64,000 bases of DNA from Pedobacter panaciterrae. GTDB lineage: Bacteria > Bacteroidota > Bacteroidia > Sphingobacteriales > Sphingobacteriaceae. A program made the position numbers and the translations under genes. Below are positions 33,352 through 44,421 of the stretch, one piece after another. The stretch's first letter is position 1, and every line of letters begins with the position of its first letter. The notes beneath the pieces were generated by a model. That model saw only the letters and a program-made list of their open reading frames with translations, was not told where the DNA came from and did no database searches. The stretch spans positions 248,001 to 312,000 of the forward strand of contig NZ_JABMKW010000016.1 of assembly GCF_013204795.1 (NCBI RefSeq), read 5' to 3'.

Positions 33352-34839
33352 TCAGTCTTTTGTTTTTGGTAAGATATAATCCATCGGCACCATATCTGCA
33401 ACCTTTTCATAACCCCAGAAACCTTCATAGAGCAAAGATCCGGGATCATAAATGCCCCCGTTCTCATAAAAATTGATGGACGATTTTAATTGATAAACCA
33501 ATGAGATCTGAAACCTCGAATATTCTGGTGGTCTTTCAATCTTGTAACCAGAATGATCCGCATAGTTTCTTGTTTCCCTCTCCTTTTTAAAAACGATGTA
33601 CAGTGCATCTTTGTAATTGAGGGTTTTCAGGCTGCTTAATTTTTGTTTAACCAAAGTATCTGTTAACACCTTCCCCCTGGTTAGCACTTCTAAAGTATCC
33701 GGCTTATTCTTCATCATGGTCCAGTAACTCAAAGAATCTTTTCTGGTCTTTAAGCTAATTTGTTTCCCTCTGATATCAGAAAAGAAGTTAATCTTCGCTT
33801 CAGTTAGTGTATCCGGGCGTTTACTCTTATTTGGGGCCTTTACCAGTTTATTAATAATAAAGCCATCTTCCTCAATTGAGTTACTGTATAACGATCTGAA
33901 AAAATGTTGAGGAGAACCTAAGTAGGCCACTTTTCTTTTTTCCTGATAAGCTCTTATTTTTGATCTTGTGCCCTTGATTTCTTCAAAATAAGGATAGCCA
34001 TAAAATAAGACAATCTTTGTTTCTTCATCTTCTTCAAAGTATTTAAGCAGGTATTTAATTCGGTACCCCAATGCTTTATTTTCTACAACAATAAATTCAT
34101 CGGCTATTGCTTTCAATATGTGCTTTTCATCATCATAATCAAATTGTATTACCTCCGGATTAGTAATTTCGCACTTTTTAGAATTTGGGGATGTGCCAAT
34201 GAAACTTTCCTTAAAGGCCTTAAGGCGCTCTTCACGATGCGGATCTAATGTAATTACGACCTCTTTTAACTGCTTAATATTTTCCTGAAGCTTAATTTCT
34301 ATATCGGCAGATTTACTAATAATGGTTACGTTTTGGTTTGCTGGAAGATACCCGATCATTTGAACAAGCACATTGTAATTTCCTTCCTTTAAATTTCGAA
34401 TCACAAACCTTCCTTCATTATCTGCCACAGTTCCTGTCTGGTATCCGCTAAGTAAAATGCCGGCACCCGGCAATGTCTCTCCATTCTTATCTTTAACTAC
34501 CCCGGAAATAGCATATAAACTCTGTGGTGGCAAAACTTCATTCTTATTCTTAGCAATAATCATTACAATTTTATTTTCGATAATGTAGGTTACAGGTAGA
34601 TCTTCAAAAACGGTACTCAAAACCAAATCAATACCTGCATTTTTAACAGTTATACTAACTGTTTTTAAGCCCTGTAGTAAAGAGTTATCGTACAGAAAAT
34701 CATAGTTGCATTGTTTTCTGATCTCCTTAAAAACTGTCGACAATTCGGTATCCTTTAGCGACAGAGTGATACCTTGCGCGTTCGCGTTAACTGTGGTATG
34801 CAGAAATACGATCAAAAAAAACGCGAATATCAATCTCAT
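33352..34839 (-). CDS. STN and carboxypeptidase-regulatory domain protein without barrel
   Basis: 495 residues. After the signal peptide (ending NANAQ), a secretin/TonB short N-terminal (STN) domain spans about residues 22-95 (LSLKDTELSTVFKEIRKQC, FLYDNSLLQG). A CarboxypepD_reg domain follows at 108-195 (ISGVVKDKNGETLPGAGILL). The last 290 residues are soluble, highly charged and contain no barrel. STN domains normally sit on TonB receptors and touch FecR to signal. Here the domain is on a separate protein directly after fecR (no gap). It is probably the signalling partner of that FecR; the function of the C-terminal part is unknown. Confidence 0.85.
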   Translation of the reverse strand: MRLIFAFFLIVFLHTTVNANAQGITLSLKDTELSTVFKEIRKQCNYDFLYDNSLLQGLKTVSITVKNAGIDLVLSTVFEDLPVTYIIENKIVMIIAKNKNEVLPPQSLYAISGVVKDKNGETLPGAGILLSGYQTGTVADNEGRFVIRNLKEGNYNVLVQMIGYLPANQNVTIISKSADIEIKLQENIKQLKEVVITLDPHREERLKAFKESFIGTSPNSKKCEITNPEVIQFDYDDEKHILKAIADEFIVVENKALGYRIKYLLKYFEEDEETKIVLFYGYPYFEEIKGTRSKIRAYQEKRKVAYLGSPQHFFRSLYSNSIEEDGFIINKLVKAPNKSKRPDTLTEAKINFFSDIRGKQISLKTRKDSLSYWTMMKNKPDTLEVLTRGKVLTDTLVKQKLSSLKTLNYKDALYIVFKKERETRNYADHSGYKIERPPEYSRFQISLVYQLKSSINFYENGGIYDPGSLLYEGFWGYEKVADMVPMDYILPKTKD

Positions 34840-35988
34840 CTACTCTGTAACTATAACTCTGTTTCCGTCTATTTTAAATTTAACCTTACCCGTTACTTCT
34901 AATGCTTTTAAAACAACCGAAATATTTTTTGAACGAGATACTGTACCGCTTAAATGGAGGTTTTTATGATTTCCATTGTCAACAATTTCAACATTATACC
35001 ATCGGGCAACCTGACGCAGAATGCTACCAAAATCTTCGTTATTAAATATAAAATCTCCATTTTTCCAGGCTACAGCCCCCTCTGTGTCTGCCTTACGAAC
35101 ACTTAGGTTATTTTTGGCTAACAACGATTCCTGACCAGGCTGTAAAATCTTATGTTCATTATGGTTCGACACTTTAACAGATCCTTCTAATAATGTAGTT
35201 CTGGTTGCATCCTCATCGCTATAAGAATTTACGTTGAAATGGGTACCCAACACCTCAACCTCTTGTTTATCTGTTTTCACAATAAAAGGATGCATTTTAT
35301 CTTTCGCAACTTCAAAATAAGCCTCACCCACAAGTTCGACTTTACGCTGTTTAAGTGAGGTAAAAGTTGCAGGAAATGTAAATGTAGAAGCGGCATTTAA
35401 CCAGATCTTTGAACCGTCGGGTAAAGCCACCTGATATTGTTGCCCTCTTGCGGTAGTTATACTATTTAATTCAGAATTCTCTATGGCTGTTTTCTGTTCA
35501 TCCTCCTTTAAAGGTTTGGCTTTATAGGCCAATTTCCCGTCTGCAGTTTTGAAAATAGAGACATTTGTTTGTTCAGCGATCAGACCTGTTGGCGCATCAG
35601 ATAAAATTATCTTTTTCCCGTTTGCAAGGGTTAAAGTAGCCGTATTTTGAGCGGGTGCCACATCATTAACGGTGTTTGCTACTATAGAGGCCTTAGGCTC
35701 TGGACTGATTTGCTGATTGTAATAAAACAAACCACCACCAATTACAACTAGCAAGCATGCAGCGGCAACAGCCGCATACCATAAGCGTTTTACTTTTGCA
35801 GGTGCCTTCTGTTCCATCAGCGATTTGTAAATCGCTTCAGTCTCCTGATTCAGCTCATCCTCAGAAAGTACTGGAATATTATCTTTAGAAAAATAATGCA
35901 GCCAGTATTTAGCAGTTTGTTCTTCCGCAGGAGTAGCTGTACCAGCACTCACTTTATCCAAAACTTTTTTAATATCTTTCTTTTCCAT
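34840..35988 (-). CDS. FecR-family anti-sigma factor
   Basis: 382 residues. A cytoplasmic helical N-terminus (about 75 residues with ATPAEEQTAKYWL) precedes one membrane helix (LWYAAVAAACLLVVIGGGLF). The periplasmic FecR domain contains TTARGQQYQVALPDGSKIWL, NAASTFTFPATF and KVELVGEAYFEVAKD. A C-terminal DUF4974/STN-like domain follows (FGSILRQVARWYNVEIVDNG). It senses the state of an outer-membrane partner and controls the ECF sigma factor encoded just upstream. It is flanked by the sigma gene (107 bp) and the STN protein (0 bp). Confidence 0.93.
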   Translation of the reverse strand: MEKKDIKKVLDKVSAGTATPAEEQTAKYWLHYFSKDNIPVLSEDELNQETEAIYKSLMEQKAPAKVKRLWYAAVAAACLLVVIGGGLFYYNQQISPEPKASIVANTVNDVAPAQNTATLTLANGKKIILSDAPTGLIAEQTNVSIFKTADGKLAYKAKPLKEDEQKTAIENSELNSITTARGQQYQVALPDGSKIWLNAASTFTFPATFTSLKQRKVELVGEAYFEVAKDKMHPFIVKTDKQEVEVLGTHFNVNSYSDEDATRTTLLEGSVKVSNHNEHKILQPGQESLLAKNNLSVRKADTEGAVAWKNGDFIFNNEDFGSILRQVARWYNVEIVDNGNHKNLHLSGTVSRSKNISVVLKALEVTGKVKFKIDGNRVIVTE

Positions 35989-36095
35989 TGGCTCTTTAGA
36001 ATTTCCGCTGATTTGAATTTGGGATTCTGCTCATTGTTGACATAGACAACTCAGGAACACCAAATGGGGACAGCGTCTGAAATTATTTTTACAAA

Positions 36096-36674
36096 TCAGG
36101 AGTTAATGATAAAAATCAAGTAAATACCAAGTCCTAATTTTAGCTTCAAGTGCTTCATTGCCCTTTTCAGCTGGGTATTTACTGTTGATTCCGCAACACC
36201 TAAATGTTCAGATATATCTTTTGCAGACATATATTGTTTGCTTCGTAATTCATAAACCTTTCGCATTCCTGGTGGCATTGCCGCTATTTCTTTTTCTATC
36301 ATTGCAGTGATATCCTTTTCTCTTATCAGAAAATCGGTTTCTTCACTATCAACATCTATATAATGGTTTCCTTCGTCTGCATATCGGCGTAAAACATCTT
36401 TATGTCTAAAAACATTGAAAATCTTATTAAGAACAGATTTATAGAGATAACCAGAAAGGGTGGTTTTTAAATCGAGCGTTTCACGATTGTTTAACATCCA
36501 TGCAAAAACATCCTGCACTATATCTCTGGATTCTTCTTTATTACCAAGTTTGTGATAGGCATAGAGATAAAGGGGCTTATCGTACCTCATGTAGATTTCC
36601 CTAAACGCCGCATCATCTCCAGACTTAAATAGCCGGATCAATTCACGTTCGTTATATTTGGTATAGTCTAACAT
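36096..36674 (-). CDS. ECF RNA polymerase sigma factor (FecI-like)
   Basis: About 192 residues from ATG 36674 (MLDYTKYNERELIRLFKSGD); an in-frame ATG at 36716 would add 14 atypical residues. Sigma region 2 is seen in AFREIYMRYDKPLYLYAY and SRDIVQDVFAWMLNN. Region 4 is seen in MPPGMRKVYELRSKQYMSA and DISEHLGVAESTVNTQLKRA. It directs RNA polymerase to a small regulon, probably the STN protein and the barrel gene downstream, under the control of FecR. A hydrophobic tail (LGIYLIFIINS) is typical of Bacteroidetes FecI proteins. Confidence 0.93.
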   Translation of the reverse strand: MLDYTKYNERELIRLFKSGDDAAFREIYMRYDKPLYLYAYHKLGNKEESRDIVQDVFAWMLNNRETLDLKTTLSGYLYKSVLNKIFNVFRHKDVLRRYADEGNHYIDVDSEETDFLIREKDITAMIEKEIAAMPPGMRKVYELRSKQYMSAKDISEHLGVAESTVNTQLKRAMKHLKLKLGLGIYLIFIINS

Positions 36675-36908
36675 ATAAACAACTTCTCTAAAGTTAACTA
36701 TTATCTGAATACTCAAATCAGATAATATCCCCGTATTGAGAAAATTACAATCGGTTAATAAGAAAGGGCTCTAGCTGCTGATGGTTTTAGGGGTTTAATA
36801 GGCCCTGTCAAAGCTTCGCCACACTTAACTCACTATCAAGTCTGAGGCAGTTTCGGCTCCATTTTTATTTTGTACAGCAGTTACATATTAATTTTAAACC
36901 AAATTTTA

Positions 36909-36939
36909 TTTGGAATTGCGATTTCAATCTATATATTTG
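36909..36939 (+). promoter_or_regulatory. his operon promoter
   Basis: TTTG at 36909-36912, a 19-bp spacer and TATATTTG at 36932-36939 give a full match to the Bacteroidetes housekeeping promoter (TTTG, TAnnTTTG). Transcription would start near 36945 and leave a leader of about 175 nt before hisG. Confidence 0.75.
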
Positions 36940-36988
36940 CATCTCCTCAGGATGCTAGCCATTGTTGATAAGGAACTTAAATAATATT

Positions 36989-37051
36989 ATGAACACAATT
37001 TTGAATCATCATTTACATTTGCACCATCGCCAATTGGCGATGTATATGTAA
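36989..37051 (+). CDS. histidine-rich leader peptide of the his operon
   Basis: A 20-codon frame reading MNTILNHHLHLHHRQLAMYM. Five of seven consecutive codons (7-13) are His. It lies 70 bp before hisG and about 45 bp after the predicted transcription start. This is the classical design of an amino-acid-sensing leader: ribosomes stall at the His run when charged tRNA-His is scarce, which changes folding of the downstream RNA. It is too short for ordinary gene finding. A perfect 18-bp palindrome (37025-37042) overlaps the end of the His run. A U-rich stretch follows, but no textbook terminator is seen. Confidence 0.8.
   Translation: MNTILNHHLHLHHRQLAMYM
37025..37042 (+). promoter_or_regulatory. 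palindrome in the his leader
   Basis: CATCGCCAATTGGCGATG is a perfect 18-bp palindrome starting at the last His codon. A ribosome stalled on the His codons would cover its left half and stop it folding, so it is well placed to act as the switch element. Confidence 0.6.
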
Positions 37052-37120
37052 TGTTTTGTACTTCAAAACTTGTTTCCGACCTTATTTTCTTGTTCAATTC
37101 AATAATAATCAAAAGCACAT

Positions 37121-37972
37121 TTGAAAACACTTAAAATCGCTATCCAGAAATCGGGTAGATTAAACGAAAAATCAGTAGAAATCCTTAAAAATTGTGGTCT
37201 ATCTTTCGAAAACTACAAAAGCTCATTAATTTCAACTGTTACAAATTTCCCATTGGAAATCCTCTTCTTAAGAGATGACGATATTCCGGAATATGTACAG
37301 GACGGAATTGCCGATCTGGGCATAGTTGGCGAAAACGTAATTGTAGAGTCTGGCTCTGAAGTTACTTATCTTCAAAAATTAGGCTTCGGTAAATGCACAC
37401 TTAAAATCGCAATCCCTAACGAAAGTCACATTACAGAAATTGCACAATTAGAAGGAAAAGCCATTGCAACTTCTTACCCTGTAATCCTTGAAAAATACCT
37501 TAAAGATAATCATGTAAATGCTGAGGTTCGTACCATATCCGGATCTGTAGAAATTGGTCCGGGTTTAGGATTAAGCGACGCGATTTGCGATATCGTTTCA
37601 ACTGGTGGAACATTAAAAAGTAATGGCTTGAAGCCATTCTCAGAAGTGATGAAATCTGAGGCTATATTGATTGGAAAAGAAGGCTCAGAATTATTACCGG
37701 AAGTTCAGGAATTGTTGCAAAGGATCCGTTCGGTACTGCGTGCAAAAGAGACCAAATATGTTGTGCTGAATGTGGCTAAGTCTAACCTTAAAAAAGTTGT
37801 AGATCTTTTGCCTGGTGTAAAAAGCCCGACTGTAGTTCCATTGTTTGATGAGGACTGGGTTGCTGTACATTCGGTAATTGCAGAGCATGATTTCTGGGAA
37901 AAGATCAATAGTCTTAAAGCAGCCGGCGCACAAGGAATTGTTGTTATGCCTATTGAAAAAATCATTGCTTAA
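37121..37972 (+). CDS. hisG: ATP phosphoribosyltransferase, long form
   Basis: 283 residues from a TTG start (TTG AAA ACA). It catalyses the first step of histidine synthesis, joining ATP and PRPP. The catalytic domain has IAIQKSGRLNEKS at the start and the PRPP-binding loop region DAICDIVSTGGTLKSNGL. The C-terminal ACT-like domain of about 75 residues (YVVLNVAKSNLKKVVDLLPG) marks the long form that is inhibited by histidine directly and needs no HisZ. It is the first structural gene of the his operon, after the His-rich leader. Confidence 0.96.
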   Translation: MKTLKIAIQKSGRLNEKSVEILKNCGLSFENYKSSLISTVTNFPLEILFLRDDDIPEYVQDGIADLGIVGENVIVESGSEVTYLQKLGFGKCTLKIAIPNESHITEIAQLEGKAIATSYPVILEKYLKDNHVNAEVRTISGSVEIGPGLGLSDAICDIVSTGGTLKSNGLKPFSEVMKSEAILIGKEGSELLPEVQELLQRIRSVLRAKETKYVVLNVAKSNLKKVVDLLPGVKSPTVVPLFDEDWVAVHSVIAEHDFWEKINSLKAAGAQGIVVMPIEKIIA

Positions 37973-38040: not shown

Positions 38041-39333
38041 TTGAAAATCTACAGTTATAAGGATTTATCTAAACAAGAGATTGAATCGATCTGTTTAAGG
38101 CAGCTGGAGGACGACGCTACAATACAAGACCGTGTAAAAGGCATAGTGGATGCTGTTAAAACCGACGGAGACAAGGCTTTGTTTAGCTTTGCAAAACAGT
38201 TTGACCAGGTTGAATTAGCACAGCTGTTCATCGGAAAAAAAGAGATTGAAGAGATAGCCGCATCTATTCCTGCAGCTGCAAAAGCAGCTATTGATACAGC
38301 CTACCAAAACATCCGAACCTTTCATGCGGCTCAGGCCAATAAAGAAGAAAAGATAGAGACAATGCCAGGTGTAACCTGCTGGCGCGAAGCGAGGGCTATC
38401 GACCGTGTAGGCCTTTATATCCCTGGTGGATCTGCTGTTTTACCAAGTACTTTTTTGATGCTTGGAATACCGGCTATACTTGCGGGATGCAAAGAGATTG
38501 TGGTATGTTCCCCTCCTCAAAAAGACGGAAAAACAAATTGTTATCTGGCCTATTGCGCTTTGAAATTGGGAATTGAAAAGATCTATCTGGTGGGAGGTGC
38601 ACAGGCGGTTGCCGCAATGGCTTACGGAACAGAAAGCGTACCTAAGGTATACAAGATTTTTGGCCCAGGTAACCGTTATGTAACACAGGCAAAACAGCTG
38701 ATACAGTCGACAACCATGACTGCAATTGATATGCCTGCTGGTCCTTCGGAGGTCCTGGTGCTTACAGATGAGACTGCCAATCCGTCATACGTTGCTTCCG
38801 ACTTACTTGCACAAGCAGAGCATGGAGCTGATAGTCAGACCATACTGGTCTCCACCTCAAACGAAATCATAACTAAAACACTTGAACAAGTTGAAATTCA
38901 ACTAAAAGAACTTCCAAGAAAAGACGTAACTGCCCTTGCAATAGCAAATTCGTATGCTGTACTGGTAAAAGATCTGGAACAAGGTATGGAATTTAGCAAC
39001 ACCTATGCCCCAGAGCATCTGATCCTTTCCACAGACCATTTCGAACCACTTATACCGCTGATAGCTAACGCAGGATCTGTATTTTTGGGTAATTTAACTC
39101 CGGAAAGCGCAGGAGATTATGCTTCGGGCACTAACCACACTTTGCCTACAAGCGGCTTTGCAAAAGCTTATTCAGGTGTTTCACTTGATTCGTTTGTAAA
39201 GAAGATTACCTTCCAGCACATCAGCCCTAAGGGTTTAGAAAATATTGGTAACACTGTTGAGGTACTCGCAGAAGCGGAAGGCTTAAGGGCGCACAGAAAT
39301 GCGGTAAGTATTAGATTGAAAGACATAGTTTAA
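38041..39333 (+). CDS. hisD: histidinol dehydrogenase
   Basis: 430 residues, full length. The start is again TTG, 68 bp after hisG. Motifs include GLYIPGGSAVLPSTFLMLG, KIFGPGNRYVTQAKQL, DMPAGPSEVLVL, LLAQAEHGADSQ (zinc and catalytic His/Glu region), NTYAPEHLIL and GDYASGTNHTLPTSG. It oxidises histidinol to histidine in two NAD-dependent steps with a zinc ion, the last reactions of the pathway. hisC follows after 26 bp. Confidence 0.97.
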   Translation: MKIYSYKDLSKQEIESICLRQLEDDATIQDRVKGIVDAVKTDGDKALFSFAKQFDQVELAQLFIGKKEIEEIAASIPAAAKAAIDTAYQNIRTFHAAQANKEEKIETMPGVTCWREARAIDRVGLYIPGGSAVLPSTFLMLGIPAILAGCKEIVVCSPPQKDGKTNCYLAYCALKLGIEKIYLVGGAQAVAAMAYGTESVPKVYKIFGPGNRYVTQAKQLIQSTTMTAIDMPAGPSEVLVLTDETANPSYVASDLLAQAEHGADSQTILVSTSNEIITKTLEQVEIQLKELPRKDVTALAIANSYAVLVKDLEQGMEFSNTYAPEHLILSTDHFEPLIPLIANAGSVFLGNLTPESAGDYASGTNHTLPTSGFAKAYSGVSLDSFVKKITFQHISPKGLENIGNTVEVLAEAEGLRAHRNAVSIRLKDIV

Positions 39334-39359
39334 CAAGCCCAAAAATTAATCCCGTTAAC

Positions 39360-40400
39360 ATGGATATTAATAAATTACAAAGAGAAAACATTAAAAACCT
39401 TCGCCCCTATTCTACGGCGAGGGATGAATATAAAGGGCAGGCCAGCATATTTTTGGATGCCAATGAGAACAGCTATGGCTCTCCATTAGATCAGAATTAC
39501 AACCGCTACCCTGATCCTTTACAGCTTGATCTTAAAGATGCAATCAGCAAAATCAAAGGAGTTCCAATTGAAAACACCTTTCTTGGAAATGGAAGCGACG
39601 AGGCAATAGATCTTCTTTTCAGAGCTTTTTGTGAGCCGGGGATAGATAACATCATCATCCTTCCTCCTACTTATGGCATGTATGAAGTTTCAGCAAACAT
39701 CAACAATGTTGAAATACGTAAAGTCGATTTACTACCTAGCTTTCAGCTGGATCTTGAGGGCATCGCAGAGGCTATTGATGAGCACACTAAACTGATCTTT
39801 ATCTGCTCTCCAAATAACCCTACCGGAAACTCAATTATCCGCACAGATATTGAAACCGTACTGGCTAATTTCAATGGTTTGGTTGTGATAGATGAGGCAT
39901 ACATTAACTACGCAAAACAGCGCACATTTATTAAAGAATTAACGGAGTATCCGAACCTTGTGGTATTGCAAACTTTCTCTAAAGCCTGGGGTTTGGCAGC
40001 CCTGCGTTTGGGTATGGCTTTTGCCGCCCGTCCGGTTATAGATGTACTGAATAAAGTTAAACCTCCGTATAATATAAACCAGGCCACACAGGATATTGCT
40101 TTGAAAGCTTTGGAGAATATAGAACAGGTAAATGACTGGATTAAAATTACTGTCGAAGAAAGAGATAAATTAAGTACAGATCTGGCTGAATTGGCCATGG
40201 TAAGAAAGGTATATCCATCTGATGCTAATTTTATACTAATACAGGTTGATGATGCGTTAAATACATACAACGCCCTGGTAGACCAAGGTATCATCATCAG
40301 AGACCGATCTAAAGTATCATTGTGCGAAGGATGCCTGCGCATCACTATTGGAACCACCCAAGAAAACGAAATCCTCTTAAAAGCCCTAAAAACACTATAA
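39360..40400 (+). CDS. hisC: histidinol-phosphate aminotransferase
   Basis: 346 residues, a fold-type I PLP enzyme. It has FLDANENSYG near the N-terminus, LGNGSDEAIDLL for the phosphate cup, FICSPNNPTGNS, VVIDEAYINYA, and the PLP lysine Lys208 in LQTFSKAWGLAALRLG. It converts imidazole-acetol phosphate and glutamate to histidinol phosphate. Its stop overlaps the hisB start by one base (TAATG), so translation is coupled. Confidence 0.97.
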   Translation: MDINKLQRENIKNLRPYSTARDEYKGQASIFLDANENSYGSPLDQNYNRYPDPLQLDLKDAISKIKGVPIENTFLGNGSDEAIDLLFRAFCEPGIDNIIILPPTYGMYEVSANINNVEIRKVDLLPSFQLDLEGIAEAIDEHTKLIFICSPNNPTGNSIIRTDIETVLANFNGLVVIDEAYINYAKQRTFIKELTEYPNLVVLQTFSKAWGLAALRLGMAFAARPVIDVLNKVKPPYNINQATQDIALKALENIEQVNDWIKITVEERDKLSTDLAELAMVRKVYPSDANFILIQVDDALNTYNALVDQGIIIRDRSKVSLCEGCLRITIGTTQENEILLKALKTL

Positions 40401-41533
40401 TGAAGAAAGTATTATTTATAGACCGTGATGGTACACTCATTAAAGAACCCGCGGATGAGCAGATTGATTCATTTGCCAAATTAGAATTTTACCCTAAAGC
40501 ACTATACTATCTTTCAAAAATTGCAGCAGAGCTGGATTATGAGCTGGTAATGGTTACTAATCAGGATGGTTTAGGCACAGATTCTCATCCTGAGGAGCAC
40601 TTCTGGCCGGTACATAATTTCATTATGGATACTTTTGCCGGTGAAGGCGTAGAATTTAGTGAGGTAATTATCGACAAAACCTTTGCCCACCAGAATGCAA
40701 TAACACGCAAACCCAATACAGGACTATTGCAACATTATTTTACCGAGGCCTATGATCTGGACAATTCATTTGTAGTTGGCGACCGTATAAACGACGTTAT
40801 CCTGGCTAAAAACCTTGGTGCAAAAGCCATATGGATCTGTAATAATGACCAGCTTGGCGCTAATGAAAAGCTTGAAAAGGCGGAGCATTTAACCGAGTAT
40901 ATTGCTTTAAGAACCCAAAATTGGGTGGATATCTATACCATGCTTAAGGCTGGAACAAGAACAATTACTCATGAACGCAATACCAATGAAACAAAGATTA
41001 GCATTGGCATTGATCTGGATGGAACTGGCAAAGCTGATATCGATACAGGCTTAAATTTCTTTAACCATATGCTTGACCAGATTGCGCGTCACGGAAGTAT
41101 TGATTTACGAATCAAAACCAATGGCGATTTGCATATAGATGAGCACCATACTATTGAGGATACTGGTATTGCACTTGGAGAAGCTTTTGCCAAGGCTATA
41201 GGTAACAAACTTGGTCTTGAGCGCTATGGTTTCTGCTTGCCTATGGACGATTGTTTAGCTCAGGCAGCAATAGACTTTGGCGGGCGTAACTGGATTGTTT
41301 GGGAAGCAGATTTTAAACGTGAAATGGTTGGCGATATGCCTACGGAAATGTTTTATCACTTCTTTAAATCATTTAGTGATGCGGCAAAATGCAACCTGAA
41401 CATTAAAGCTGAAGGCGAAAACGAGCATCATAAAATTGAAGCTATATTTAAAGCCTTTGCCAAGGCAATTAAAATGGCCATTAAACGTGATGCTGAAAAG
41501 CTGGTTTTACCCAGCACTAAGGGAGTATTGTAA
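40400..41533 (+). CDS. hisB: bifunctional histidinol-phosphatase/imidazoleglycerol-phosphate dehydratase
   Basis: 377 residues from ATG 40400, which overlaps the hisC stop; the frame is open upstream but only as an antisense-like overlap of hisC. The N-terminal half is a HAD phosphatase (LFIDRDGTLIKEP; FVVGDRINDVILAKN). The C-terminal half, from about residue 185, is the IGP dehydratase with metal-binding DEHHTIEDTG and ENEHHKIEAIFKAFAKA. It carries out steps 6 and 8 of histidine synthesis, as in enterobacteria. A small palindrome follows it before hisH. Confidence 0.97.
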   Translation: MKKVLFIDRDGTLIKEPADEQIDSFAKLEFYPKALYYLSKIAAELDYELVMVTNQDGLGTDSHPEEHFWPVHNFIMDTFAGEGVEFSEVIIDKTFAHQNAITRKPNTGLLQHYFTEAYDLDNSFVVGDRINDVILAKNLGAKAIWICNNDQLGANEKLEKAEHLTEYIALRTQNWVDIYTMLKAGTRTITHERNTNETKISIGIDLDGTGKADIDTGLNFFNHMLDQIARHGSIDLRIKTNGDLHIDEHHTIEDTGIALGEAFAKAIGNKLGLERYGFCLPMDDCLAQAAIDFGGRNWIVWEADFKREMVGDMPTEMFYHFFKSFSDAAKCNLNIKAEGENEHHKIEAIFKAFAKAIKMAIKRDAEKLVLPSTKGVL

Positions 41534-41541
41534 TTAGATAG

Positions 41542-41571
41542 CCGTCATCTCGACTTTAGGAGAGATGATGG
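41542..41571. repeat. small palindrome in the hisB-hisH gap
   Basis: Arms CCGTCATCTC (41542-41551) and GAGATGATGG (41562-41571) pair with one mismatch around a 10-nt loop. The GTCATC start is shared with the larger palindrome between hisF and hisI, suggesting related dispersed repeats. It could form an RNA hairpin within the operon transcript. Confidence 0.6.
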
Positions 41572-41595
41572 GAACGAGAAATAAAGAATTGAATA

Positions 41596-42189
41596 ATGAT
41601 TGGAATAGTAAACTACGGCGCCGGCAACATCTTTTCCCTTACTTCTGCATTGGAAAGGTTAGCTATACCCTTCGGAATGGTAAACACAGAAACTGACCTG
41701 GACAAATACACCCACATCATTATTCCAGGTGTGGGACATGCCGGAGCAGCAATGAACAAACTGGAGCAAACAGGGCTTGTTGAGCCAATAAAGGCATTAA
41801 AAAAACCGGTACTTGGCATCTGCGTGGGCATGCAATTACTTACCGAACATTCGGAAGAAGGAAATGCCGACATGATGAATATAGTACCTGTTAAAACAAA
41901 ACTATTCGATAAGAATCAAGGGATTAAAATCCCGCACATGGGTTGGAATAATATAGATCATAAAAACAATTCCTTGTTTGAAGGTGTTGAAAATCTGACA
42001 CAATTTTACTTTGTGCATTCGTACTTTATTGAATATAACCCTACTTTTGATATCGCGACTGCAAATTATGGAAAACCATTTTCTGCAGCAGTGCAAAAGG
42101 ATAATTTCTATGGCGTACAATTTCATCCAGAGAAATCTGGTATCGCCGGAGAGCGTTTATTAAAGAATTTTTCAAACTTAAAACAGTAA
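41596..42189 (+). CDS. hisH: imidazole glycerol phosphate synthase, glutaminase subunit
   Basis: 197 residues, a class I glutamine amidotransferase. The triad is visible: Cys76 in LGICVGMQLL, His177 and Glu179 in QFHPEKSG. The oxyanion strand is IIPGVGHAGAAM. It releases ammonia from glutamine and channels it to HisF. It starts 62 bp after hisB, and hisA follows after 1 bp. Confidence 0.97.
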   Translation: MIGIVNYGAGNIFSLTSALERLAIPFGMVNTETDLDKYTHIIIPGVGHAGAAMNKLEQTGLVEPIKALKKPVLGICVGMQLLTEHSEEGNADMMNIVPVKTKLFDKNQGIKIPHMGWNNIDHKNNSLFEGVENLTQFYFVHSYFIEYNPTFDIATANYGKPFSAAVQKDNFYGVQFHPEKSGIAGERLLKNFSNLKQ

Positions 42190-42190
42190 A

Positions 42191-42940
42191 ATGTACATAA
42201 TTCCCGCAATTGATATTCTAGATGGTAAGGTAGTTCGCCTTAGAGAAGGTGATTATAACCAAAAAACAGTATATGATGTTTCCATCGCTGAAATGATAGA
42301 CACTTACCGGTCTAATGGTACAGAATTCATACATATTATTGATCTAAATGGAGCAAAAGGAGATTTCAGTAACCAGGCAGCGCTTTTTGACATCATTAGG
42401 AAAACCGACATGCGTGTTCAGTATGGAGGTGGTATCCGCACAATTAAGCAAGTTACAGATTTGCTTGACGCAGGTATTCATCGTGTTATTGTTGGCACAC
42501 AGGCCATTACCAACCCTGATTTCTTAAAAGATCTTAGTGCTGAAGTAGGCAAAAAATATGACTATGCCAACCGTATTGTTATTGCTATTGACGTATTAGA
42601 CGAAGTAATTAAATACTCAGGTTGGATGGAAAGTTCACCAATTAAGCTAATGGATTATGTTGACAAGTGCTTACAACTTGGCTTTTTCAGGTTCCTATGT
42701 ACAGATATCAACAAAGATGGCAAACTAGGTGGCGCAGCCGTAGATTTGTATAAAAAACTATTGGAGCACTCTCCGTTTATAAAACTGATTGCATCGGGTG
42801 GTATCAGTTCAATGGCCGACATTGAAGAACTGGCAAACCTGGATATCCGTTCAGTAGTTGTTGGCAAGGCAATATATGAAAACAGGATTTCTATTGATGA
42901 AATTAAGCAATGGAATCTGAAGCAAATGACCTCTCTTTAA
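42191..42940 (+). CDS. hisA: ProFAR isomerase (phosphoribosylformimino-AICAR-P isomerase)
   Basis: 249 residues, a (beta/alpha)8 barrel. The catalytic Asp8 lies in [11 protein letters not shown], with a conserved [10 protein letters not shown]. Phosphate-binding loops are VQYGGGIRT and [14 protein letters not shown]. The catalytic Asp of the second half is in [14 protein letters not shown]. It performs the Amadori isomerisation that yields PRFAR. It sits between hisH (1 bp) and hisF (3 bp). Confidence 0.97.
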
Positions 42941-42943
42941 CCG

Positions 42944-43699
42944 ATGTTAAGCAAACGTATTATTCCATGCCTTGATGTTAAAGATGGGCGCACGGTTAAA
43001 GGTGTAAATTTTGTTGACCTTAAAGATGCCGGGGATCCGGTTGAACTTGCCTGGCAGTATGCGCAGCAAGGAGCTGATGAACTGGTGTTTTTAGACATTA
43101 CCGCAACTCATGAAAGACGTGGTACCACGATAGAAATGGTGAAGTCGGTAGCCCGTCAGCTAAATATCCCGTTTACCATAGGTGGGGGTATAACTACCAT
43201 TGCTGACGCTGAAGCACTATTGAATTCCGGTGCTGACAAGATCAGCATTAACTCTGCGGCAGTCAGAAACCCCTCGTTAATTGAGGATTTAGCTAAAGCA
43301 TTTGGTGTTCAGTTTGTAGTGGTGGCTGTTGACACTAAACTGGTAGATGGCAAAAATATGGTTCACCTTAATGGCGGACGGTTGATTACTGAACTGGAAA
43401 CAGAAGACTGGATTCTTAAGGCTGAAAGTTTGGGAGCAGGTGAAATTCTATTGACTTCAATGGATCACGACGGCACTAAAAATGGCTTTGATTGCTTATT
43501 ACTTGATAAAATAGCACGATCTATCAACATCCCTGTAATTGCCTCGGGTGGCGCAGGGAAGGTTGAACACTTTACGGAGGTATTTTTAGAGACAGGTGTT
43601 GATGCTGCTTTGGCAGCCTCGGTTTTTCACTTTGGTGAGATTCCTATCCCCTATTTAAAAAGCGAATTAAAAAAACACAATATACCGGTAAGGTTGTAG
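42944..43699 (+). CDS. hisF: imidazole glycerol phosphate synthase, cyclase subunit
   Basis: 251 residues, a (beta/alpha)8 barrel related to HisA. Asp11 in [17 protein letters not shown] and the second Asp in [12 protein letters not shown] are the catalytic pair. Phosphate loops are [12 protein letters not shown] and [13 protein letters not shown]. It closes the imidazole ring with ammonia from HisH, giving IGP and AICAR. A 131-bp gap containing a large palindromic repeat separates it from hisIE. Confidence 0.97.
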
Positions 43700-43722
43700 C
43701 AAAATCTTGTAACTAAAGCGGC

Positions 43723-43804
43723 CGTCATCCTGAATTTATTTTAGGATCCCGCAAGAGAAAGATAAATAACATGGCCGGGATGCTGAGATAAATTCAGCAT
43801 GACG
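43723..43804. repeat. large palindromic repeat in the hisF-hisI gap
   Basis: Two 29-nt arms (43723-43751 and 43776-43804) are complementary with about five mismatches and are separated by 24 nt. They begin with CGTCATCCTGAATTTATT and its counterpart. It resembles dispersed REP/MITE-like palindromes. In the his mRNA it would form a long hairpin that could protect or process the transcript. Confidence 0.75.
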
Positions 43805-43830
43805 AGATCGTGTAAAGAGTTAAAAAAGAT

Positions 43831-44421
43831 ATGAACATAGATTTTGAAAAAACACAGGGTTTGGTACCTGTAATTATACAGGATGTACAAACCCTGGAAG
43901 TTTTAATGCTGGGTTATATGAACCAGGAAGCATGGGATAAAACACTTGCAGAGGGAAAAGTTACTTTCTTTTCGCGCAGTAAAAACAGACTATGGACTAA
44001 AGGTGAGGAAAGCGGAAACTTTCTTTTTGTAAAGGAAACGCATATAGATTGCGATAATGATACAATTTTAATAAAAGCTACGCCGGTAGGTCCTACTTGC
44101 CATACAGGTTCTCGTAGCTGCTTTAAAACTGACTACAACCAGAACTTTATATTTGAGCTGGAACAGATCATTGCCGATCGCTATGAAAACCCTTCTGAAG
44201 AATCTTATGTAAATAAGCTTCGTTCAAAAGGGCTCAATAAAATTGCACAAAAAGTTGGTGAAGAAGGTGTTGAAACTGTTATAGCTGCACTGGCCGAAAC
44301 TGATGTGGATTTCGTTAACGAAAGCTCCGACCTGATCTTTCATTTATTGGTTTTACTTAGAGAAAAGGGCAAAACCCTGGCAGATATCGGCTTAAATCTA
44401 AAAGGTCGACATAGCAAATAA
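43831..44421 (+). CDS. hisI: bifunctional PR-AMP cyclohydrolase/PR-ATP pyrophosphatase
   Basis: 196 residues with two fused domains. The N-terminal cyclohydrolase has [34 protein letters not shown], the metal motif [10 protein letters not shown] and the Cys motif [12 protein letters not shown]. The C-terminal pyrophosphatase (from about residue 108) is an all-helical MazG-like domain ([20 protein letters not shown]). It performs steps 2 and 3 of the pathway, as HisIE of many bacteria. It follows the palindromic repeat; a WD40 gene comes 4 bp after it. Confidence 0.97.

Follow-up and report, generated by a model that had tools for sequence, protein, structure and literature searches.

The histidine biosynthesis cluster in the window (the whole 64-kb stretch of DNA that was analysed) is preceded by a short histidine-rich leader frame and a set of predicted RNA pairings, read here as a ribosome-sensing histidine attenuator whose output would lie at hisG translation rather than at an intrinsic terminator. 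A probability of roughly 0.5 is assigned to this reading. On comparative evidence, it is almost certain that histidine is sensed through the leader peptide. Comparison across relatives shows a His leader behind a promoter match, two predicted hairpins (H1 and H2) and complementarity for two long-range pairings (A:C' and P0). The translational output step is one that we infer, because masking of a stalled ribosome in predicted folds rarely opens hisG by itself and 41 of the 107 distinct loci with H2 keep at least five U after it.

The his leader locus

The features of the locus are listed below in order of position.

36909-36939, plus strand: promoter by sequence match (TTTG at 36909-36912, 19-nt spacer, TATATTTG at 36932-36939)
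36961-36984, plus strand: 5' arm of P0 in the window fold, in the 5'UTR before the leader ATG, partner 37082-37106
36989-37051, plus strand: leader peptide frame MNTILNHHLHLHHRQLAMYM, ATG to TAA, 20 codons, stop 1 nt 5' of H2
36999-37005, plus strand: segment A, UUUUGAA, leader codons 4-6, pairing with C' by fold and duplex test
37025-37042, plus strand: H1, palindrome hairpin from the last His codon, outer stem extending to about 37013-37054
37053-37069, plus strand: H2, GUUUUG-UACUU-CAAAAC, with motif matches in relatives
37062-37068, plus strand: C', UUCAAAA, loop end and 3' arm of H2, alternative partner of A
37082-37106, plus strand: 3' arm of P0 by fold, -39 to -15 from the hisG start
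37121-37972, plus strand: hisG, TTG start, TIGR00070 and TIGR03455 over cut-off
38041-44421, plus strand: hisD, hisC, hisB, hisH, hisA, hisF and hisIE, each with its best NCBIfam match over that model's own cut-off

The leader and promoter head hisGDCBHAFIE, in which hisB is bifunctional and begins at 40397. TTTG-N19-TATATTTG is taken to be a promoter from its match to the Bacteroidetes consensus, and the start site is putative. The genome is 6.2 Mb in size; of its named relatives, Pedobacter panaciterrae and P. foliorum come closest by HisG (99% identity) among the best 80 of 517 loci.

Histidine occupies leader codons 7, 8, 10, 12 and 13. The leader was the sole site in the window with at least five CAY per seven codons when both strands were checked; the expectation from 20 mononucleotide shuffles of the window is a mean of 0.1 per strand. 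The first base of the perfect 18-bp palindrome CATCGCCAATTGGCGATG (37025-37042) falls at the last His codon. By itself such a palindrome is unremarkable: the 64 kb contain three of that size, against a mean of 0.55 in 20 mononucleotide shuffles. The in-frame stop preceding the hisG TTG lies at 37106-37108, and no ATG occurs between them. A preliminary description of this DNA had reported the 20-codon frame with five His in seven codons between a promoter match and hisG, the palindrome and the TTG start, and each was recovered at the coordinates given above. That description of the locus was accurate but missed H2 and both long-range pairings.

At the gathering threshold, an Rfam search of the whole window matched tRNA alone and no leader family. 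A permissive search (E ≤ 10) of 36850-37200 gave nine matches, none of them a his leader, and neither search returned a T-box covariance-model match.

Divergent from the his cluster, the minus strand at 33352-36716 carries an ECF sigma factor gene (TIGR02985, just over cut-off). Behind it on that strand come a FecR-like gene (34840-35988) and then one for a carboxypeptidase-regulatory-like protein (33352-34839), both assigned from a look at the sequence only.

Conservation of the leader and its hairpins

For the family (Sphingobacteriaceae, soil bacteria), confirmed named hisG loci numbered 517, of which the best 80 were used; ten other genus groups contributed 40 more loci, and one further group gave no hisG match. 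Removal of three duplicates left 117 distinct loci. The outgroup sample comprised 40 loci from other Bacteroidota families, of which 27 were judged to have a His-rich leader and 13 to lack one or to be unclear. A leader was present at the standard place in 112 of the 117 distinct family loci, in nine genus groups including that of the window, which bears out the proposal of a His leader peptide. A TAnnTTTG box precedes the leader by at most 75 nt in every one of the 115 leader loci (three duplicates counted), and it is likewise present upstream in all 79 named loci that have a leader. The His-rich frame sits further upstream than standard in L120 and L126, and no His leader was recognised in L073, L113 and L127.

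The His run, H1 and H2 are kept, while the peptide ends and the position of the stop codon vary among relatives. The stop lies 1 to 18 nt 5' of H2 (excluding two loci in which the automatic assignment of H2 was wrong), and in one Pedobacter group it falls inside the H1 loop. His codons are also kept in other families, amid different flanking sequence.

H1 is recoded as CACCACC/GGUGGUG in L077, and the loop and perfection of the palindrome differ among relatives. The palindrome, first put forward as a switch, is the tip of a larger fold and not the switch itself; the elements predicted to change partners are leader codons 4-6, H2 and the pairing between the 5'UTR and the region upstream of hisG. 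Variants of H2 in relatives include GUUCUG/CAGAAU, GUUUC/GAAAC, GUUUC/GAAGC, GCUUC/GGAGC and GUUCU/AGAAU, among others. H2 is present in 110 of 115 leader loci, a count that is not independent because the motif list was drawn from variants already seen. In the same genome as the window, the exact H2 pattern GTTTTGTACNNCAAAAC gave no match besides the his leader.

Long-range pairings A:C' and P0

P0, A:C' and H1 together give an imperfect but nearly unbroken duplex in predicted folds of the free RNA. The outer segment of P0 at 36947-36956 pairs, in the fold of the window, with 37114-37124, the hisG TTG included; in several genera the 3' arm of P0 stops 15-30 nt before the start codon.

Pairing was assessed by comparing duplex energies of partners from the same locus (cognate) with those of partners from different loci, with p values from permutation. 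Cognate P0 duplexes were stronger among 10 lineages less than 70% identical (-9.88 vs -7.10 kcal/mol, p 0.001), 16 lineages (-10.34 vs -6.90 kcal/mol, p ≤ 0.00005) and 29 lineages (-10.31 vs -6.94 kcal/mol, p ≤ 0.00005). The corresponding values for A:C' were -7.06 vs -4.30 kcal/mol (p 0.0001; 10 lineages less than 70% identical), -7.03 vs -4.31 kcal/mol (16 lineages) and -7.14 vs -4.32 kcal/mol (29 lineages), with p ≤ 0.00005 for the last two. Control duplexes, 5'UTR with hisG coding sequence and pre-promoter DNA with spacer, gave no cognate excess (p 0.36-0.78). Below 60% identity the permutation test was uninformative because two lineages remained. Segment A also pairs weakly with its cognate more distal spacer (p 0.035, 10 lineages). 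A comparison of relatives' leaders for His codons and paired partners had been suggested at the outset; the His run is kept, and for both pairings the cognate partners pair more strongly.

An earlier long-range duplex comparison, in which lineages were unselected, gave -12.0 for cognate, -9.5 for non-cognate and -8.3 for shuffled partners, and in several Pedobacter groups the cognate partners did no better than non-cognate ones. Predicted P0 is weak in L080, L117 and L131. In the terminator-bearing outgroups no P0 was detected (p 0.46, 22 lineages), compared with p 0.0001 in the family under the same definition (16 lineages). On sequence alone, P0 is indistinguishable from a stability or insulation element.

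The start of the hisG coding sequence, considered by eye as a partner for the 3' arm of H1, was dropped because its match is explained by protein conservation. An odd leader, MNTILKHHHLHHPHHCA, is found in L065 (1879-2000) without H1 and H2 of the usual type. Compared by eye, its opening codons, AAUACAAUUUUAAAACAC, and a downstream GUGUUUUAAAAAAAAAUUGUAUU match along nearly their whole length, which is the A:C' idea again.

Predicted switch and folding states

With ample His-tRNA, the first ribosome would complete the leader and depart. P0, A:C' and H1 would then zip into a single long hairpin, hiding both the start of the leader and the sequence 5' of the weak TTG, and hisG would be poorly translated. 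With scarce His-tRNA, a ribosome would stall at the first His codons and cover A, so that H2 could capture C' and the long hairpin would be unable to zip. P0 would be weakened or kept open by the stalled ribosome, and hisG would be translated.

Stalling was modelled in 29 lineages by masking a 30-nt ribosome footprint. At least three expected H2 pairs were predicted in 7 of 29 lineages for free RNA, in 25 with the ribosome at the first His codon, in 18 at the last and in 2 at the stop codon. H2 is thus predicted to form in the starved state, an argument against its being a terminator. In the free state, mean pairing was 76% at the leader start, 62% at hisG -35 to -16 and 36% at -15 to -1. With footprint masking alone, the hisG region from -35 to -16 became less paired in 11 of 29 lineages for a ribosome at the first His codon and in 1 of 29 for one at the last. 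When closure around the stalled ribosome was forbidden, this happened in 25 and 24 of 29, respectively. The claim that a stall opens hisG rests, in light of these results, on a steric assumption. Mean pairing at hisG -15 to +12 was 0.37-0.41 in every state, and an earlier fold comparison of 28 loci showed little change in most of them.

In Flavobacterium johnsoniae, mRNA structure around the start tunes initiation, and Bacteroidetes are described as naturally without SD sequences (both from the part of PMC6847099 used here). A translational effect is thereby made reasonable, though not demonstrated.

Start codon of hisG

A non-ATG start was called for hisG in 111 of the 117 distinct family loci (TTG in 82, GTG in 29), and 109 of these 111 have no in-frame ATG upstream or within the first 20 codons. 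In the outgroups hisG starts with ATG in 26 of 26 loci, under a calling rule that took an in-frame ATG wherever one existed and so favours ATG there. The conserved non-ATG start points to translation, in keeping with the suggestion in the preliminary description that control may act at the hisG translation start.

ATG starts in the family are confined to six loci: two from Olivibacter, in which P0 is weak or missing, and L073, L120, L126 and L127, which lack the standard leader. Speaking against a strict link are L113, where hisG starts with TTG although no leader was recognised, and L080, L117 and L131, whose starts are non-ATG despite weak predicted P0. Since hisG in L113 still starts with TTG, the loss of its leader may be recent.

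Terminators in the his leader, in relatives and in other operons of the genome

Terminators were scanned from the leader ATG to hisG as hairpins of ≤ -8 kcal/mol adjoining a U run, at cut-offs of at least five or at least four U; for the outgroup locus L184 the scan was offset 9 nt inside the leader. With at least five U, a terminator was found in 26 of 27 outgroups vs 8 of 115 family loci, and the outgroup terminators ranged from -8.3 to -21.1 kcal/mol in a scan begun 30 nt inside the leader. The window has no hairpin adjoining at least five U between leader ATG and hisG, in agreement with the initial report that no U-run terminator follows the leader. With at least four U, the counts are 26 of 27 outgroups vs 70 of 115 family loci, the latter because extended H1 runs into UUUU in many Pedobacter loci; in the window this hairpin has -13.7 kcal/mol. 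The hallmarks of a classic attenuator were found in part: the leader has codons for the product, ribosome-set mutually exclusive pairings (A:C' vs H2) are predicted, and a strong U-run terminator is absent from the window.

Three other amino-acid leaders of the same genome (L202, L203 and L204), whose first genes start with ATG, are followed by strong terminators. The trp leader MINNIHTWQWRGNSEKSFVATLCTL (WQW) precedes trpE and has a terminator of -12.4 kcal/mol. The Val/Leu/Ile-rich ilv leader MNLSVNVLFTVIVNLILLLIIQKDKAL, before an ilvE-like gene upstream of ilvD, has one of -15.0 kcal/mol. The thr leader MNSTITTTTTTTGITRRKVS, which has an uninterrupted run of seven Thr and precedes a large aspartokinase gene, has one of -21.7 kcal/mol. 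The absence of a strong terminator is therefore his-specific among the operons of this genome that were examined. Another aspartokinase locus of the genome, L199, has no leader. The region upstream of leuA was dropped as a leader candidate; the gene appears to lie closely behind another, and leuA scored below its family cut-off.

Transcription attenuation by a weak or atypical terminator that would act under ample histidine, either H2 with a U-rich tail or extended H1 running into UUUU, is the foremost competing explanation and is considered unlikely. At least five U in a row occur within 8 nt downstream of H2 in the 41 loci mentioned above, which include most of one large Pedobacter group (CAAAACUUUUUUUCC) and do not include the window, where H2 is followed by UUGUUUCC; termination may take place in those 41 loci. 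The hairpins found with four U likewise favour such a terminator; in the window this is extended H1, and since its 5' arm includes His codons, stalling would act with the right sign. On the other side, H2 alone has only -2.9 kcal/mol, and the tail is not kept, the ten g3 loci with H2 having at most three U in the next 8 nt. Among 29 distinct loci from other genera, the U run behind H1 is UUU and then C in 23, and the strong trp, ilv and thr terminators of the same genome also weigh against a weak one here. Formation of H2 is predicted to be high on stalling and low with the ribosome at the stop codon, the wrong sign if H2 were the terminator of a biosynthetic operon. Because of its stability, variable tail and sign, H2 as a terminator is retained as a competing explanation and not as the main reading.

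Other routes from leader to output

The output could also be RNA decay or Rho-dependent termination: once the leader ribosome leaves, the long hairpin would be cut or the untranslated operon terminated. The near-continuous duplex of the free state is a plausible nuclease target, and no terminator would be needed. Between leader stop and hisG, however, no conserved C-rich unstructured stretch was seen by eye, and stalled RNA is predicted to be less paired than free RNA, the wrong sign for Rho; we regard this route as quite unlikely. Very improbable is reinitiation or coupling, in which ribosomes finishing the leader would be handed to hisG by a fold that juxtaposes both sites. P0 does bring the leader start beside the region upstream of hisG, and a general role of reinitiation at leaders has been proposed in the portion of PMC4833913 cited here. 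The gap from leader stop to hisG is 59-108 nt, far from the peak of 10-11 bp (15-16 in Firmicutes) given in that portion (PMC4833913), and such handover would cut expression under histidine shortage. That the leader frame is a relic and histidine regulation absent is scarcely credible, given that nine genus groups of the family, as well as other families in which the flanks differ, have kept the His codons.

Relation to known leader systems

Attenuation by a leader peptide is a textbook mechanism whose usual output is a terminator. The his operon leader peptide attenuator of Enterobacteria, which has an Rfam family, resembles the present element in having a short His-run frame before hisG and a ribosome position that selects between exclusive pairings. 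Unlike it, the window lacks a GC-rich hairpin with a U run and an Rfam leader match, and has two long-range pairings, one of them to the region upstream of hisG, and a non-ATG hisG start. In ermC-type translational attenuators, a stalled leader ribosome frees the start of the next gene in response to an antibiotic. The his element resembles a translational attenuator by inference and lacks the terminator of a classic attenuator; it differs from ermC in that the signal there is an antibiotic and not an amino acid, and leader and fold are unrelated.

Among sources of which only a part was used, PMC1262725 describes the LEU element of actinobacterial leuA, a predicted leader in which Leu codons pair with the SD box. 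Like it, the his element has a leader with cognate codons; it differs from the LEU element described there (PMC1262725) in that its 5'UTR has its partner upstream of hisG, while the codons preceding the His run pair with H2. The same part notes actinobacterial cys leaders without obvious terminators (PMC1262725). The Bacteroid-trp motif RF01692 is likewise a predicted cis-regulatory RNA of Bacteroidetes, and its name suggests an amino-acid operon (PMC2864571, in part); the Rfam search found no match to it in the window.

In F. psychrophilum, the part of PMC9723704 used here reports a structured 5' element before hisG that is conserved in Flavobacteriaceae and has no Rfam hit, and leader peptide attenuation before amino-acid operons. 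Leader-like short frames are reported in B. thetaiotaomicron, his being unnamed in the part used (PMC7366714). As of 2010, the section of PMC2965389 used here states that leader peptide systems had been shown only in Proteobacteria and Actinobacteria, ermC set aside, and it adds a new hisS/hisZ leader peptide case in bacilli. Among the literature matches listed, whose coverage leaves subscription journals largely outside, the his element of Sphingobacteriaceae is undescribed. It has no Rfam match, and a covariance model built from it could serve to annotate the his operons of the family. Bacteroidota initiate without Shine-Dalgarno sequences, and an upstream standby region hidden before a weak start would, if true, provide a direct test case for the tuning of their initiation by RNA structure.

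The His leaders of other Bacteroidota (L151-L187) are similar in having a His leader, often a TAnnTTTG box, and a hairpin at the His codons; they differ in the terminator (26 of 27), the ATG start of hisG (26 of 26) and the undetected P0. The core of the L153 terminator, GUUUGAGUACAUCAAAC, resembles H2 of the window, GUUUUGUACUUCAAAAC, and H2 is possibly a remnant of the terminator core of Flavobacteriaceae-like relatives. The architecture of the his element probably derives from a terminator-type attenuator like those of other Bacteroidota. A fuller account, which we hold tentatively and at slightly less than even odds, is that the family turned this ancestral attenuator translational: the terminator shrank to H2, the site where ribosomes land on the leader came to complement that of hisG, and the start became TTG or GTG, while the Trp, branched-chain and Thr operons keep their terminators. 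Related lineages carry the same sensor with or without a strong terminator, so that the change of output can be traced stepwise.

Two further complementarities were seen by eye in Flavobacteriaceae-like loci. In L152-L155, L160, L162, L165 and L166, a hisG start of the AUGAGUAC type complements a segment of the GUACUCAAAC type some tens of nt upstream of hisG; that segment is in addition a match to the his terminator's 5' arm (GUUUGAGUAC type). The hisG start pairing in these loci could possibly form a second, translational layer on a transcription attenuator. In L153, L155 and similar loci, the 5' arm of the terminator, CGUUUGAG, is matched by leader codons CUCAGGCG or CUCAAGCG, which encode Ser/Thr-Gln-Ala close to the end of the leader. 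This match is likely an antiterminator, which would explain the conserved SQA/TQA ending of the peptide.
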